A stretch of DNA of 64,000 nt. Origin: Sulfurospirillum sp. 1612. GTDB lineage: Bacteria > Campylobacterota > Campylobacteria > Campylobacterales > Sulfurospirillaceae. Below the pieces are notes generated by a model. That model was not told the origin of the DNA. It did no database searches and saw only the letters and a program-made list of their open reading frames with translations. Shown piece after piece: positions 54,498-61,892 of this stretch (within the stretch, counting starts at the first letter, position 1; every line of letters begins with the position of its first letter). The translations under genes and the position numbers were made by a program. The DNA is taken from contig NZ_CP140614.1 in assembly GCF_036556685.1 (NCBI RefSeq), positions 1,922,001-1,986,000 of the forward strand, in the 5' to 3' direction.

Positions 54498-55142
54498 ATG
54501 TCAAGATTAATTGATGCGATCAAAGAATACCAAGTTGGCTTTAGAAAAAAAGCTCCAAAAGAAGTTCAAGATATTATGCTGCAAGCAACAAAACAACTCG
54601 AAAAGATGCACCTCAGCCAGAATGCACTCACAGTAGGAGCGCGCGCCAAAGCCTTTACCCTACCCAATGCCGTAGGAAATCTTGTATCTTTAGATGATGT
54701 TTTAGACAAAAATGATTTTGCGATTGTGAGTTTTTATAGAGGAGCTTGGTGTGCTTATTGTAATCTTGAATTAAAAGCACTACAAGAGAGAAATGATGAA
54801 TTTAAAGCATTGGGGGCCCAGCTCATTGCTATCTCTCCTCAAACTCCTGATGCCAGTTTATCGACGCAAGAAAAACATAATTTGCAGTTTGAAGTACTCA
54901 GTGATGCACAGAATACAGTAGCGAAGTCCTATGGCTTGGTCTTTTCTCTAGCCCAAGAGCTAAGACCAATCTATCTGAGTTTTGGTATTGATATCCCTGC
55001 AAGCAATGAAGAAGAGAGTTACGAACTCCCCATGCCCGCTACGTATGTCATCAATAAAGAGAAAACAATCATCTTTTCATATGTCAATGAAGATTACACA
55101 AAAAGGTGCGAACCGCAAGATATCATTGATATCATTAAATAA
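54498..55142 (+). CDS. Peroxiredoxin-like (AhpC/TSA) thiol-redox protein
   Basis: 214 residues. An N-terminal helical extension (about residues 1-45) precedes a thioredoxin-fold domain: GARAKAFTLPNAVGNLVSL, then VSFYRGAWCAYCNLELKAL with a CAYC active site. The YRGxWCxYC type belongs to the AhpC/TSA redoxins that resemble atypical peroxiredoxins. Likely peroxide or disulfide handling. AAAGGA precedes the ATG by five bases. A strong promoter with a dyad lies upstream. Confidence 0.88.
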   Translation: MSRLIDAIKEYQVGFRKKAPKEVQDIMLQATKQLEKMHLSQNALTVGARAKAFTLPNAVGNLVSLDDVLDKNDFAIVSFYRGAWCAYCNLELKALQERNDEFKALGAQLIAISPQTPDASLSTQEKHNLQFEVLSDAQNTVAKSYGLVFSLAQELRPIYLSFGIDIPASNEEESYELPMPATYVINKEKTIIFSYVNEDYTKRCEPQDIIDIIK

Positions 55143-55176
55143 AATGAAATTATTTGTAAAATAACTTGAAAATATA

Positions 55177-55224
55177 TTGACTTTTGAACATATGTGCGTT
55201 ATAATTCTGCACATATGTTCAAAA
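55177..55224 (+). promoter_or_regulatory. Promoter inside a perfect 16-bp-arm inverted repeat (DUF134 operon)
   Basis: TTGACT (55177-55182), a 17-base spacer and TATAAT (55200-55205). The arms TTTTGAACATATGTGC (55182-55197) and its exact complement (55209-55224) flank an 11-base centre that contains the -10 box. A dimeric regulator bound here would cover the promoter; the first gene downstream is the DUF134 HTH protein, so autoregulation is the simplest reading. Confidence 0.85.
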
Positions 55225-55234
55225 AGGAGTCAAG

Positions 55235-55531
55235 ATGCCCTGTTGTGGAAGACGACGCAAAGATAGAGTTATAGATGTCAATCACTGCGAGATTTGTTTC
55301 AAACCTCGAGGTATTCGTAGTGATACCCTTGAATCAATTATCCTTTACGAAGATGAGATGGAAGCCATCCGACTCTCAGATTATGAATCCCTATACCAAC
55401 AAGATTGTGCTGACAAAATGCAAATATCTCGTACAACGTTTTCGAGACTCATTGATTCAGCACGAAAAAAAATCGCTGATGCCCTTTTGAACAATAAAAT
55501 CTTAGAAGTAAAAGAAAGGAAACAATCATGA
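55235..55531 (+). CDS. DUF134 family helix-turn-helix protein
   Basis: 98 residues. The Cys-rich N-terminus (PCCGRRRKDRVIDVNHCEICFKPRG) and the DEMEAIRLSDYESLYQQDCADKMQISRTTFSRLIDSARKKIADAL sigma-factor-like HTH are the DUF134 pattern. Family members sit beside NifX-type and MinD-ferredoxin genes in anaerobes and are presumed regulators. Here it heads the operon under the palindromic promoter. The ATG of the next small gene overlaps its stop (ATGA). Confidence 0.9.
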   Translation: MPCCGRRRKDRVIDVNHCEICFKPRGIRSDTLESIILYEDEMEAIRLSDYESLYQQDCADKMQISRTTFSRLIDSARKKIADALLNNKILEVKERKQS

Positions 55532-55674
55532 TACTAGCATGTAACAACGGACGATGCATCAATAAAGATCGATGCGAACGCTATCGACTTTTCAAAGATG
55601 GTGCCAAAGAGTACTCCACCAATGGCGGTACTCCAGAAAAAGGCTGTAAAAAATTTATACCGATTCAAAAATAA
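55528..55674 (+). CDS. 48-residue four-cysteine protein
   Basis: 48 residues: MILACNNGRCINKDRCERYR..., with Cys at 5, 10, 16 and 40 and many basic residues. It is too short for normal gene calls but overlaps the DUF134 stop by 4 bases, is followed by a good Shine-Dalgarno (AAGGAG) for the next gene, and reads in the operon direction. The cysteines could bind zinc or an Fe-S cluster. Family not recognised. Confidence 0.75.
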   Translation: MILACNNGRCINKDRCERYRLFKDGAKEYSTNGGTPEKGCKKFIPIQK

Positions 55675-55684
55675 GGAGATTATT

Positions 55685-55894
55685 ATGAGAAGAAACGGAC
55701 AAGGACAAGGTCAAGGACAAGGTCAAGGTCAAGGTCAAGGTCAAGGTCGAGGAAGAAACTGCGCTCATTCCCCTCGTCATGAAGGACGCGGAATGAATAA
55801 AAATACACATGCATGCCAAGGAAACGGTGTCGGATTTGGACAAGGTAATGGTCGAGGTCATGGCGTAAACCGCTACAGACATGAAGAAAAATAA
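55685..55894 (+). CDS. Gly-Gln repeat peptide of the MinD-ferredoxin operon
   Basis: 69 residues, start chosen for AAGGAG seven bases upstream. MRRN is followed by eight Gly-Gln dipeptides and Gly-Arg pairs, then a Cys/His-containing tail (RNCAHSPRHEGRG..THACQGNGVGFGQGNGRGH). It may be the local counterpart of the small Gly/Met-rich DUF5320 proteins often found with DUF134 and MinD-ferredoxin genes; that link is by context only. Its end overlaps the first ATPase by 14 bases. Confidence 0.7.
   Translation: MRRNGQGQGQGQGQGQGQGQGRGRNCAHSPRHEGRGMNKNTHACQGNGVGFGQGNGRGHGVNRYRHEEK
55697..55750 (+). repeat. Tandem hexamer repeat (GGWCAA) inside the Gly-Gln gene
   Basis: Nine 6-base units: GGACAA or GGTCAA, the last GGTCGA, encoding Gly-Gln and Gly-Arg. 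Unit number could change by slippage without shifting the frame, so repeat length rather than expression would vary. Confidence 0.9.
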
Positions 55895-56747
55895 CCTTAA
55901 AATCACCATCGCAAGTGGAAAAGGTGGAACCGGAAAAACAACGGTTTCCACCAATCTTAGCTCCTATCTTGCCAGTAACAATCACGCGGTAGTACTGACA
56001 GATTTGGATGTAGAAGAGCCTAATTCTGCACTCTTTATCGATGCTAAACTCAAAGAGACAACAATCTGCAATAAAATGGTTCCAAAATGGGAACGTGCTG
56101 ATTGTACCTTGTGTGGAAAATGTGCAAAGATTTGTAATTTTAATGCCATTGTCGCACTGCCTTCTGAGGTCTTAGTATTCCCTGAACTGTGTCACAGTTG
56201 TTATGCATGTAGCGAACTCTGCCCCACAAATTCTTTGCCGATGAATCCTGTCAGAATAGGAGAAATTAAAACATTTGAAGCGACTGATTTTCATTTTGTC
56301 GAAGGACGGTTAGATTTAGGCCAAGAGATGGCCGTACCACTCATCTCACAAACGATTGATTATGTAGATGAAAATTTTAAAGATACAATCAAAATTTATG
56401 ACGCACCTCCGGGGACCAGTTGCCCGGTCATTGAAGCCAGTAGAGAGAGTGATTTTGTCATCTTAATCACAGAATCCACCCCTTTTGGGCTCAATGATTT
56501 GCGCTTGGCCGTCGAAACAATGCGCGTCCTCAAACAAAATTTTGGTGTCATCATCAACCGTTATGGTATTGGCAATAATGATGTTGAAGCGTATTGTCAG
56601 CAAGAGGGAATCCCAATTATCACAAAAATCAAAAATGACAAAGCCCTCGCCACTCTTTATTCAAAAGGAGCGTTAATTTATCCCAAAATCGAACACTTCA
56701 AAAATTCACTCGATGACATTGCAACATTTATAGGAGCGATAAAATGA
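55881..56747 (+). CDS. MinD-type ATPase with inserted two-cluster ferredoxin domain (first)
   Basis: 288 residues. Deviant Walker A ASGKGGTGKTTVSTNL (about residues 11-26), then an inserted ferredoxin, CTLCGKCAKIC and CHSCYACSELCP (two [4Fe-4S] sites, about residues 75-115), then the ATPase core (DAPPGTSCPVIEAS; ILITESTPFGLNDL). Such proteins accompany NifX/ORP-type proteins and probably assemble or move a metal cluster using ATP. Overlaps the second paralogue by 4 bases. Confidence 0.93.
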   Translation: MKKNNLKITIASGKGGTGKTTVSTNLSSYLASNNHAVVLTDLDVEEPNSALFIDAKLKETTICNKMVPKWERADCTLCGKCAKICNFNAIVALPSEVLVFPELCHSCYACSELCPTNSLPMNPVRIGEIKTFEATDFHFVEGRLDLGQEMAVPLISQTIDYVDENFKDTIKIYDAPPGTSCPVIEASRESDFVILITESTPFGLNDLRLAVETMRVLKQNFGVIINRYGIGNNDVEAYCQQEGIPIITKIKNDKALATLYSKGALIYPKIEHFKNSLDDIATFIGAIK

Positions 56748-57637
56748 AAGAAATCGTCGTAATTTCAGGTAAAGGAGGTACTGGGAAAACCTCACTGAGT
56801 GCTTCCTTTGCATATCTTGCTGGAGCGGAATCTCTGATTTGTGATTGTGATGTGGATGCGGCCAATATGCACCTACTTTTAGATGCAGATTTTGACAAAA
56901 GAGAAGATTTTATGAGTGGGGAAATCGCCAAAATCGATGCCGATTTATGTAGCAATTGTGGTGCATGCGAAGCAGCGTGTCGTTTTGATGCCATCCATCG
57001 CATAGAAGACCAATATGAAGTTGATCCAATTTCCTGTGAGGGATGTTGGTATTGTAGTCGTGTTTGTCCTAGCCATGCCATTACGATGGAAACACAAAAA
57101 GCCGGTGATCTTTTTGTCTCACATATCAAAAATAATGCACAAATGGTACATGCCAAGCTGGGATTTGGAGCAGAAAATTCTGGTAAACTCGTCGCAAAAG
57201 TCAAACAAACAGCCCGAAATATCACTAAAGATAGTGCCATCAAGTACATCATCACAGATGGTAGTCCGGGAATTGGATGTCCGGTCATCTCTTCTTTAAG
57301 TGGTGCTGATTTGGTCGTACTAGTAACTGAGGCTACGATATCGGGAATTCATGATTTAAAAAGAGTTCATAAACTCATCAAAACGTTCAATCTACAAGCG
57401 GTATGTATTATTAACAAATATGACCTCAATCTCGAAATGACGCAAGAGATTGAAGCATTTTTACATGATGAAGATATCAAACTGATTGCAAAATTACCTT
57501 ATGATGAAACCTTTACCAAAGCACTTTCATTAGCACAGCCAATTGTAGAATATGATAAAGATTGCGCACTTTCACATCTTGTGAAACAGGCATGGGAAAC
57601 GATAAAAGAGAATATTTTAATAAAAAAAGGAATATAA
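56744..57637 (+). CDS. MinD-type ATPase with inserted two-cluster ferredoxin domain (second)
   Basis: 297 residues, paralogue of the preceding gene. Walker A ISGKGGTGKTSLSASF, ferredoxin insert CSNCGACEAAC and CEGCWYCSRVC (about residues 67-110), then DGSPGIGCPVISSLSGADLVVLVTEAT. The pair probably forms a heterodimer, since MinD-type ATPases dimerise on ATP. Starts within the 3' end of the first paralogue (ATGA overlap). Confidence 0.93.
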   Translation: MKEIVVISGKGGTGKTSLSASFAYLAGAESLICDCDVDAANMHLLLDADFDKREDFMSGEIAKIDADLCSNCGACEAACRFDAIHRIEDQYEVDPISCEGCWYCSRVCPSHAITMETQKAGDLFVSHIKNNAQMVHAKLGFGAENSGKLVAKVKQTARNITKDSAIKYIITDGSPGIGCPVISSLSGADLVVLVTEATISGIHDLKRVHKLIKTFNLQAVCIINKYDLNLEMTQEIEAFLHDEDIKLIAKLPYDETFTKALSLAQPIVEYDKDCALSHLVKQAWETIKENILIKKGI

Positions 57638-57638
57638 T

Positions 57639-57980
57639 ATGAAAATAGTATTTACAGCAAAAGGGGGCGATTGGGAGAGCTCTATGGATCCAAGATTTGG
57701 ACGTATGGAGATGTTGGTCGTTTATGATGACGTCGCCAAGACACTCACATCAGTACCAAACAACGAGACAGAGGGCATGGAACATGGTGCAGGACTACAA
57801 ACTGCAAAAAAAGTTTTGGAATTAACCCCCGATATCATTATCACGGGCAACGGTGCAGGGGAGAAGGCATTAGCCATCTTAAAACGCTCCAATGTGAAAA
57901 TGTACATCGGTGCGGGCAATATGAGCATAAAAGAAGCATATGATGCATACCAAAACAATCAATTAGAATTACAATATTAA
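57639..57980 (+). CDS. NifX/ORP-like protein (dinitrogenase iron-molybdenum cofactor domain), first
   Basis: 113 residues. DPRFGRMEMLVVYDD, NNETEGMEHGAGLQTAKKVLEL and PDIIITGNGAGEKALAILKRSNVKMYIG follow the NifX/NafY/NifB-C fold used to hold Mo-Fe or Mo-Cu clusters. Orange Protein of Desulfovibrio has this fold and a Mo-Cu sulfide cluster. No nitrogenase gene is in the window. It starts one base after the second ATPase. Confidence 0.9.
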   Translation: MKIVFTAKGGDWESSMDPRFGRMEMLVVYDDVAKTLTSVPNNETEGMEHGAGLQTAKKVLELTPDIIITGNGAGEKALAILKRSNVKMYIGAGNMSIKEAYDAYQNNQLELQY

Positions 57981-57989
57981 GGACAGAAA

Positions 57990-58355
57990 ATGAAACTCGT
58001 TTTCCCAACAGATACCAATGAAGGGTATCTATCACCAAGAGGTGCTCACTTCGGTAGAGCCAATTTTTATACCATTGTCACACTGGAAGATGGAAAAATT
58101 GTCGAAGTAGAAGGAGCACAAAATCCAGGTCATAAAACTGGTGGTTGTAGCAATGCTATTACCAATATTTTGAATTTTAAACCCGATGCACTCATCGTCA
58201 GCGGCATCGGTGGTGCTCCCGCACAAGGTTTTGCAAAAGCGGGATTGGACGTCTATTTTGATCGCGTTTCTCGTACCGTAGAAGAGAGTATCAAAATGTT
58301 TCTTGAAGGAAAACTAGAACAAAGTACCGGACAAGGAACCTGTTCAACACACTAA
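57990..58355 (+). CDS. NifX/ORP-like protein, second, with Cys motifs
   Basis: 121 residues, second copy of the same fold: GAHFGRANFYTIVTLEDGKIVEVE, HKTGGCSNAITNIL and GIGGAPAQGFAKAGLDVYF. It differs from the first by a Cys in GGCSNAI and a Cys/His end (QGTCSTH), possible cluster ligands. The two may be partners or one carrier with its acceptor. Lies 9 bases after the first. Confidence 0.88.
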   Translation: MKLVFPTDTNEGYLSPRGAHFGRANFYTIVTLEDGKIVEVEGAQNPGHKTGGCSNAITNILNFKPDALIVSGIGGAPAQGFAKAGLDVYFDRVSRTVEESIKMFLEGKLEQSTGQGTCSTH

Positions 58356-59240: not shown

Positions 59241-60365
59241 CTAATAATGATGAGAATCCGATTGGATTTCATCTGATGTAATTTGTTTTTGATCCATTTT
59301 TCGCCATACGATAATAATATATCCCAACACAAAAGGGACCAAAAGGGACACATAACTCATCGCTACCAAAGTGTATCGACTCGCCGCAGCGTTACGAATA
59401 TCCAGAGAACTTTGTAAATCGCTCAGCGAAGGATAAATCGCCGTATTATTAAATCCCAAAAGGCTAAACAGTGCCAATACTACTAAAACCGTACCAACCC
59501 CACTAAACCAAATACCTTGTTGGCTCTTTTTAAACAATGAGATAAAGAGTGCATAAATCACCAACAAAGCCCCTACGAGAAAAATTCCCAACAGTATCGG
59601 TGATGCTAAAAAGTTGAGTAAAAATTTGTATTTTACAACCACAAAAGCATTGCCATCATACGCCACACCACTGAGTGTGAGCAACAAAATACAAAAAAGT
59701 ATAAAAAATGCTAGGAAAAGAATCGCGTCATTTCGTAACACCCTTCTTGTATTATTGATGATACCCTCATGATTGATATTATTCAAAAAATAGAGACTCG
59801 CTTGAACGCGAGCTAAGAAAAAGACGACCAATCCTAAAATCACATTGAAAGGATTCAAAACAGCTTCCAAACCACGGCTTGAGAGTGTCCATGAGGAGAG
59901 ATTCATATCACTTAATATAAAATTTCCTCCTGTAAAAAGTGTCCCCACTGCGGCACCAATGAGGATAATCCCCAAACTTCCATTGATGAATAAAAAGATT
60001 TCAAAAGTTTTTTGTCCTAGAAAATTATCCGGTTTTTTACGATATTCATAAGAGACCGCTTGGATAATAAAACAGAATAAAATCGCCATCCAGACATAAT
60101 AAGCACCGCCAAAACTCGTCGCATAAAAGAGTGGAAATGCCGCAAATAAAGCACCTCCAAACATCACTAACGAGGTAAAAGTCAATTCCCATTTTCGACC
60201 TAATGAGGCAATAACAATATCCTTTTCATCTTCACTCTTTGCCACTTTATTCAGTAGTGTCTGACCCCCTTGTACAAAAGTCATGAACACAAACAAAGCA
60301 CCCAAAAGAGCGATGAGGAACCACCAATATTCTTGTAATGCTAGATATGATAATTTTTCAAACAT
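59241..60365 (-). CDS. cydB: Cytochrome bd ubiquinol oxidase subunit II
   Basis: 374 residues, about eight to nine membrane segments. LQEYWWFLIALLGALFVFMTFVQGGQTL at the N-terminus is the usual CydB start; the rest is hydrophobic with short loops. With CydA it forms the high-affinity quinol:O2 oxidase, which does not pump protons but tolerates NO and sulfide. It follows cydA without a gap (60366). Confidence 0.92.
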   Translation of the reverse strand: MFEKLSYLALQEYWWFLIALLGALFVFMTFVQGGQTLLNKVAKSEDEKDIVIASLGRKWELTFTSLVMFGGALFAAFPLFYATSFGGAYYVWMAILFCFIIQAVSYEYRKKPDNFLGQKTFEIFLFINGSLGIILIGAAVGTLFTGGNFILSDMNLSSWTLSSRGLEAVLNPFNVILGLVVFFLARVQASLYFLNNINHEGIINNTRRVLRNDAILFLAFFILFCILLLTLSGVAYDGNAFVVVKYKFLLNFLASPILLGIFLVGALLVIYALFISLFKKSQQGIWFSGVGTVLVVLALFSLLGFNNTAIYPSLSDLQSSLDIRNAAASRYTLVAMSYVSLLVPFVLGYIIIVWRKMDQKQITSDEIQSDSHHY

Positions 60366-61892
60366 TTATGCTCCTTTGAACCCGAGTTTGATTTGAGATA
60401 ACATGATTTTGATCTCTGCTATTAATAATCCCGTAAAAAGTACAGCAAAGAGCACCAAAGTCACAGCAACTGAATTACTAGTCAGATGCGAAGTGGCTAC
60501 TTGTGTTGGTAGCATCCCTTGTATCGCCCAAGGTTGTCGCCCTACTTCTGCGACGATCCAACCGACTTCACCGGCAAGATATCCCAAAGGAATACTCCAA
60601 AGGGCTAGTTTTTGAAACAATCTTTTATCCTCTATTTTTCCAATCATTGAATAATATAACATAAAGAAAAAGAGGATTAAGAACCAAGTACCAAGACCTA
60701 CCATGATATGGAAGCTATAAAACGTCAATCCAACCGGTGGGATGATATCTACTGGATTTTTCAAATAGCCATAGCCTAGATATTTTTCATACATTCTAAA
60801 GGTCTTCAATGAAGCTTGACTTTTCTCTGCATCATTTACTTTTTGGGCATTTTTATAATCTCGCAATGATTTCAACGCGATTTTACCTTTGGCAAGCATA
60901 TCACTTGCTGGTTCAATATTCATTTTTTTGTTTCCCAATACCAAGTCATCCATACCGGGAACAAAAGCATCGATATTTCTAAATCCTAAAAATGAGAGCG
61001 CATAAGGAATTTGCACGGACCAAACAAAATCATCTTTGTTATCACCGATTTCCTTACCTGAGGTCAATTGGCCAATCGCCACAATTCCTTGACGTTTAGA
61101 ACCATCATATAAACCCTCCATAGCTGCTAGTTTTGTAGGTTGTTTGAGCGCCACTTGATGCGCCGATTCATCTCCAGTTGAGATCAAGAAGATTGACGCT
61201 AAAAGACCAAAAGAGGCAGCCACAATAATGCTACGTTTTGCAAAAACCGTATCTCTTTTTTTCAACAAATACCAGCTACTAATCCCAATAACAAACAAAG
61301 ATCCCATCACATAACCACTAGAAACGGTATGGAGGAATTTTGAAACTGCAACAGGATTGAAAAGCACATCAAAAAAGCTTTCCATTTCAAATCGTGCGGT
61401 ATCGACATTAAATTTCATACCGGTTGGGTATTGCATCCAACCATTGGCGACTAAAATCCAAAGGGCTGACAGATTGGAACCAATCGCAACAAGCCACGTG
61501 GAAAGCAAATGGGCTTTTTTGGAAACTTTATTCCATCCGAAAAACATCACAGCAAAGAATGTTGATTCCATAAAAAACGCCATAATCCCTTCGATGGCAA
61601 GTGGTGCGCCGAAGATATCGCCAACGATCCATGAATAGTTGGACCAATTGGTACCAAATTCAAATTCCATGATGATTCCCGTAGCCAAACCAATCGCGAA
61701 ATTGATGCCAAAAAGTGTCATCCAAAATTTCGTAATTTTTTTCCACTCAGGATTGCCCGTCTTGACATAAATCGTCTCCATAAATGCAATGATAAAAGAG
61801 AGCCCCAATGTCAATGGTACAAAAAGCCAGTGATACATCGCAGTCAATGCAAATTGTGATCGAGAGAGATCAACTAAAAGCGAATTATCCAT
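60366..61892 (-). CDS. cydA: Cytochrome bd ubiquinol oxidase subunit I
   Basis: 508 residues. The N-terminal SRSQFALTAMYHWLFVPLTLGLSF carries one haem ligand His; the Q-loop region (GDESAHQVALKQPTKLAAMEGL), NGWMQYPTG, and GRQPWAIQGMLPT are conserved CydA features. Binds haems b558, b595 and d. A DUF4492 gene lies 9 bases upstream. The operon DUF4492-cydA-cydB-small TM protein appears complete. Confidence 0.95.
   Translation of the reverse strand: MDNSLLVDLSRSQFALTAMYHWLFVPLTLGLSFIIAFMETIYVKTGNPEWKKITKFWMTLFGINFAIGLATGIIMEFEFGTNWSNYSWIVGDIFGAPLAIEGIMAFFMESTFFAVMFFGWNKVSKKAHLLSTWLVAIGSNLSALWILVANGWMQYPTGMKFNVDTARFEMESFFDVLFNPVAVSKFLHTVSSGYVMGSLFVIGISSWYLLKKRDTVFAKRSIIVAASFGLLASIFLISTGDESAHQVALKQPTKLAAMEGLYDGSKRQGIVAIGQLTSGKEIGDNKDDFVWSVQIPYALSFLGFRNIDAFVPGMDDLVLGNKKMNIEPASDMLAKGKIALKSLRDYKNAQKVNDAEKSQASLKTFRMYEKYLGYGYLKNPVDIIPPVGLTFYSFHIMVGLGTWFLILFFFMLYYSMIGKIEDKRLFQKLALWSIPLGYLAGEVGWIVAEVGRQPWAIQGMLPTQVATSHLTSNSVAVTLVLFAVLFTGLLIAEIKIMLSQIKLGFKGA

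Follow-up and report, generated by a model that had tools for sequence, protein, structure and literature searches.

The inverted repeat that overlies the promoter of a DUF134 operon in the window, the whole 64,000-nt stretch of DNA analysed here and part of a complete 2.38-Mb genome, contains two sites, O1 and O2. Our analyses indicate that these are likely the paired operators of the DUF134 protein encoded downstream, which would repress its own operon and be released by a signal related to Fe-S, metal or redox state; this account is not backed by any experiment. The sites, their conservation with DUF134 genes, the covariation between protein and DNA and the predicted helix-turn-helix (HTH) are shown by computation.

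The repeat spans 55182-55224 (no strand assigned). Its perfect 16-bp arms, TTTTGAACATATGTGC at 55182-55197 and GCACATATGTTCAAAA at 55209-55224, are 100% complementary and flank the 11-nt core GTTATAATTCT. No other perfect inverted repeat of the 64 kb with a loop of up to 40 is as long, the runner-up having arms of 14 bp, and in dinucleotide shuffles the maximum arm was at most 13 in 39 of 40 cases and 17 in the other. The core contains the -10 hexamer TATAAT (55200-55205, plus strand), preceded at a spacer of 17 by the -35 hexamer TTGACT (55177-55182, plus strand), which relatives keep as TTGACT or TTGACA. This promoter is sigma70-like, with 11 of 12 consensus matches; reading of 55143-55235 found no GG-N10-GC of a sigma54 -24/-12 promoter. 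A preliminary description had reported the 16-bp repeat with TATAAT in its 11-base core, TTGACT 17 bases upstream and a DUF134 HTH protein as the first gene downstream. All three statements held, the first exactly and the last with a PF02001 match of 73.6 bits.

Its further claim, that so large a dyad is what a dimeric repressor would need, held with one correction. Each arm contains the self-complementary octamer ACATATGT and belongs to its own palindrome of about 20 bp around CATATG, with the consensus halves TTATGARCAT and ATGYTCATAA. O1, TTTTGAACATATGTGCGTTA (55182-55201, no strand), lies in the -35/-10 spacer with its centre at 55191/55192; O2, TTCTGCACATATGTTCAAAA (55205-55224, no strand), lies over the predicted start site, its centre at 55214/55215 being 23 bp away. 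When an operator model learned from other DUF134 loci was applied to all window positions, O2 scored best (21.1) and O1 second best (18.9), the next position reaching only 9.6. The two sites are each slightly asymmetric (GAACATATGTGC) and face each other with mirrored asymmetry, so that together they look like a single long and perfect inverted repeat. We rejected the 43-bp dyad as a single dimer site, given that relatives keep both palindromes at altered spacing (22-23, 30-35 or ~53 bp) or only one of them. The repeat thus probably represents two complete near-palindromic dimer sites over a promoter; binding and dimerisation are inferred, and so is repression. In its exact form the site occurs in the window's genome at this locus only, and a pattern search of that genome with up to two mismatches gave no other convincing site that would indicate a wider regulon there. 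One further high-scoring site (17.6, locus L025) sits within a coding gene of unrelated function.

DUF134 was found in 36 of the 44 genomes of the window's bacterial family, as a short subtype (95-98 aa), one of ~150 aa and one of ~195 aa, whose C-terminal extension matches Nitro_FeMo-Co in places. All three have ACATATGT-type sites upstream, and such sites are scarce elsewhere, the reversed pattern being scarcer still. A scan of the collection added DUF134 loci in Desulfobacterota, Omnitrophota, Spirochaetota, Bacteroidota, Planctomycetota, Gammaproteobacteria and others, again with CATATG-centred palindromes, often TTATGAGCATATGCTCATAA. CATATG is the most frequent hexamer upstream of 138 non-redundant DUF134 genes and occurs at most 130 nt upstream of 112 of them (shuffles: mean 7.3, maximum 15). 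The sample was enlarged to 289 non-redundant genes with Omnitrophota- and Desulfobacterota-level samples, and an EM palindrome model placed a site with a score of at least 10 upstream of 219 of them, over many phyla, against 39, 43 and 41 genes when the EM was retrained on three shuffled sets. This model was started from a consensus, and the genomes are neither independent nor evenly sampled. The operator centre is variable (CATATG, TATATA, CAAATG, CATACG) and the outer half-site TTATGA constant. No recognisable site lay within 150 nt of 67 of the 289 genes, some of which are clearly internal to longer operons while others remain unexplained. Among Desulfobacterota loci without CATATG, L330 included, whose DUF134 genes lack a recognisable operator, several lie closely behind another gene, with a His-rich coding sequence upstream. 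The Omnitrophota sample contained as many as five DUF134 paralogues per genome, and its Q66 subgroup has operators TTATGAGTATATACTCATAA.

The operator bases also vary with the protein. Symmetric left and right bases change jointly (A/T 63, G/C 31), and the binder would therefore be a two-fold dimer. Counted by half-site over 219 loci, residue 66 covaries with base -3 (R with C in 349 of 360, Q with T in 78 of 78), residue 67 with base -4 (Q with G in 196 of 204; P, T or S with A) and residue 71 with base -6 (N with T in 52 of 52; R with G/A, being G in 322 of 386). For these three bases, the most informative variable ones, the top-ranked protein column falls in the recognition helix. The weakest pairing is that of residue 67, which barely outranks the N-terminal residue 25 for base -4 (0.65 vs 0.64) and in a smaller, earlier set ranked behind residue 70, which came first. 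Phylogeny accounts for part of the covariation. When the tree was inferred without the columns of residues 66, 67 and 71, the pairable changes on supported branches went in the same direction or showed no difference, and none was contradictory; with only 2-4 independent changes per test on well-supported branches, no sign test reached 0.05 and the tests are underpowered. The window operators fit the protein type, R66, T67 and R71 predicting C, A and G, the bases present in its TTGAAC half-sites. Because the operator bases co-vary with its recognition helix, DUF134 is the best supported binder among regulators, an assignment that we consider likely and that is predicted from conservation and covariation without binding data.

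The remaining proposals of the preliminary description can be judged against these results. That DUF134 is the binder and the repeat its operator is supported by conservation and covariation, though not by binding data. Absence of the repeat upstream of orthologous operons, which would have refuted the proposal, was not observed; the motif recurs nearly throughout, in close relatives as in other phyla. The suggested metal or redox signal remains an inference. The statement that no binding site is established for the family agrees with the open-access literature searched, where we found no description of a DUF134 operator and only passing mentions of DUF134; regulon databases and closed papers are not excluded. 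DUF134, a widespread family without assigned function, thus gains a DNA target and a recognition code, both predicted; with the conserved operator and the residue-to-base covariation, it can be predicted to be a transcription factor, and its target can be named. For anaerobes, this also provides a handle on the control of ORP/MrpORP-type Fe-S proteins, whose role is still open.

The window DUF134 (UPF0251) protein (98 aa; 55235-55531, plus strand) matches PF02001 over residues 1-93, at 73.6 bits against a gathering score of 27. Its AlphaFold model (pLDDT 84.7, pTM 0.72) predicts an HTH composed of helix 55-62, a turn and recognition helix 66-85; the recognition-helix segment begins ISRTTFSR (64-71), residue 66 being the helix start in the model. 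An alignment of 54 DUF134 sequences shows no variation at S65, P24 or E43. The closest named relatives are from Campylobacterota, several of them labelled Sulfurospirillum, from which the window probably belongs to the Sulfurospirillaceae. The best solved relative of the DUF134 profile is the DNA-binding domain of Bacillus subtilis DeoR (7bhy, E 2.8e-6), with an rmsd of 0.7 A over 41 columns. Designed PPR proteins also turned up as a sequence match in the PDB, a hit attributed to chance.

DeoR, a member of the SorC/DeoR subfamily (PDB 7bhy/8r7y) with the operator ATTGAACAAAATTTCAATTACCAATTTACATATGTTCAA, binds ATTGAACAAAATTTCAAT (PMC11229326). Its recognition helix is nearly identical to that of the window protein (ISRPTVSRLL and ISRTTFSRLI), which has a homeodomain-like HTH of the SorC/DeoR type. 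The two systems share the half-site TTGAAC, a dimer on a palindrome (predicted for DUF134) and two half-operators overlapping the promoter, and the full DeoR operator also ends in ACATATGTTCAA. In DeoR, R39 is reported to contact G4 and T14, and R34 to contact T12, the confidence being low at 3.7 A (PMC11229326). R34 and R39 are spaced by five, as are DUF134 residues 66 and 71. Aligned in this way, G4 would be base -6 and T12 would pair with base -3, the same pairings as in the covariation, an inference drawn from the spacing of two arginines. DeoR tetramerises through a sugar-phosphate effector domain of ~250 aa, whereas the 98-aa window protein has no such C-terminal domain, matching just DUF134 and, weakly, sigma region 4. 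The regulons differ as well, in that DUF134 would control Fe-S/Nitro_FeMo-Co genes. The sigma-70 region 4 HTH has a similar fold, but its Pfam match is weak (20.1 bits, under the curated cut-off of 24.1), and DUF134 sites are palindromes rather than -35 elements. A sigma factor would carry both region 2 and region 4 above cut-off; here only region 4 is matched, below it.

Downstream of the DUF134 gene, the plus strand encodes a 48-aa cysteine-containing protein without family match, whose start overlaps the DUF134 stop (55528-55674); a 69-aa low-complexity Gly/Gln-rich protein with GQGQGQ repeats, identified by frame reading, which overlaps the start of the following ATPase gene (55685-55894); an Orp3/Orp4-like MinD/Mrp-type P-loop ATPase with two 4Fe-4S ferredoxin motifs (55881-56747; Pfam CbiA, ParA, Fer4); a second MinD-type ATPase with 4Fe-4S motifs by Pfam (56744-57637); two Nitro_FeMo-Co (DiNase) proteins of 113 aa (57639-57980; PF02579, 34.8 bits) and 121 aa (57990-58355; PF02579, 52 bits); and a cytochrome c. 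The pair of MinD-type Fe-S ATPases with Nitro_FeMo-Co proteins qualifies this as an ORP operon. The Desulfovibrio vulgaris orp operons likewise have two MinD-type ATPases with ferredoxin motifs and DiNase proteins (PMC6345978). The Desulfovibrio genes are under sigma54, IHF and the activator DVU2106 (PMC3897727), whereas the window has a sigma70-like promoter with DUF134 operators. Directly upstream of the operon, on the same strand, lies an AhpC/TSA-family peroxiredoxin-like gene (54498-55142). Beyond the operon, minus-strand genes at 59241-61892 look, from sequence, like cytochrome bd oxidase subunits.

In the mechanism that we propose, O1 and O2, with the half-site TTATGARCAT, would each be bound by one DUF134 dimer through the HTH. 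The two dimers, 23 bp or about two helical turns apart, would lie on the same DNA face, one over the -35/-10 spacer and one over the start site, excluding RNA polymerase, and DUF134 would thereby repress its own operon of ORP-type Fe-S ATPases and Nitro_FeMo-Co proteins. Of 146 loci whose sigma70-like promoter is clear, 135 have an operator that overlaps the core promoter: the operator centre falls within the spacer at 52 loci and around the start at 83, leaving 11 with it elsewhere. The window has both of the former arrangements. This layout is that of a repressor, as inferred from position. Many relatives have one site only; where there are two, their distance is mostly 22-26, 30-36 or 49-54 bp, near whole helical turns. 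Such distances suggest that the dimers share one face and contact each other cooperatively, the cooperativity itself being inferred. DUF134 therefore most likely binds the window sites in dimeric form and acts as repressor of its own operon, although the binding is a strong prediction and repression is deduced from position, without binding or expression data.

The alternative that survives best, which we regard as unlikely, is that DUF134, once bound to the sites, acts as an activator, or as activator and repressor in one, like MerR-type or class II regulators acting from the spacer or -35 region. O1 lies within the -35/-10 spacer, which counts for this reading. In the DUF134-Nitro_FeMo-Co fusions, the promoter of the DUF134 gene itself has a weak -35 and the site close to its -37, an arrangement compatible with activation. 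The ~195-aa subtype (L195-L203, L047-L073) has an operator pair in a divergent promoter, one site being near -37 of the DUF134 side, where the -35 is poor and activation would fit. However, the window promoter, with its optimal 17-bp spacer and 11/12 consensus, needs no activator, O2 sits on the start site, and a site is found around the start in 83 of the 146 clear promoters.

Another possibility would be that the sites belong to a different regulator, such as a repressor of the ArsR/SmtB or DeoR type, with DUF134 merely as its target. The half-site TGAAC resembles that of DeoR (ATTGAACAAAATTTCAAT, PMC11229326). It is also like ArsR/SmtB operators. We consider this very unlikely, given that the site accompanies DUF134 over many phyla, that its variable bases track DUF134 residues 66, 67 and 71, and that its exact form occurs in the window's genome only at this locus. 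A role of the repeat as an RNA or DNA structure (terminator, cruciform or leader hairpin) is all but excluded: the perfect 16-bp arms could pair, but transcription is predicted to begin downstream of the left arm, which is therefore absent from the transcript, relatives retain the palindromes but lose the pairing between the arms, and the 5' leader folds no better than chance (z 0.16), on which ground the RNA hairpin was rejected.

Returning to autorepression by DUF134, a signal tied to Fe-S, metal or redox state may release the protein. This is no more than plausible, on account of the target genes and of cysteines near the N-terminus of many members (138 of 289 proteins have at least two among their first 28 aa), and the effector is unidentified. 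A bolder reading, toward which the evidence does not quite tip, is that DUF134 proteins are widespread, largely anaerobe-associated small autoregulators with targets readable from residues 66, 67 and 71, which would link Fe-S/metal status to ORP/Nitro_FeMo-Co genes, the N-terminal cysteines serving as sensor in part of the family.

Site positions in relatives suggest a small regulon beyond autoregulation, inferred to be local and of one theme because the extra sites precede Nitro_FeMo-Co, membrane-protein and Gly/Gln-rich genes. DUF134 operators precede lone Nitro_FeMo-Co genes at L403:364 and, more distantly, L404:590, on contigs away from the DUF134 gene; the L403 gene, with its own operator, is the orthologue of the window's 121-aa protein. 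No site was found at the Nitro_FeMo-Co loci L400 and L401 of two relatives where no DUF134 gene was detected. A small Gly/Gln-rich gene resembling that of the window also sits behind an operator pair in L410. High-scoring sites at L405:1626 and L406:2439 lie upstream of a gene for a 322-aa integral membrane protein beside a DUF134-Nitro_FeMo-Co gene. By sequence, this membrane protein resembles SLAC1/TehA.
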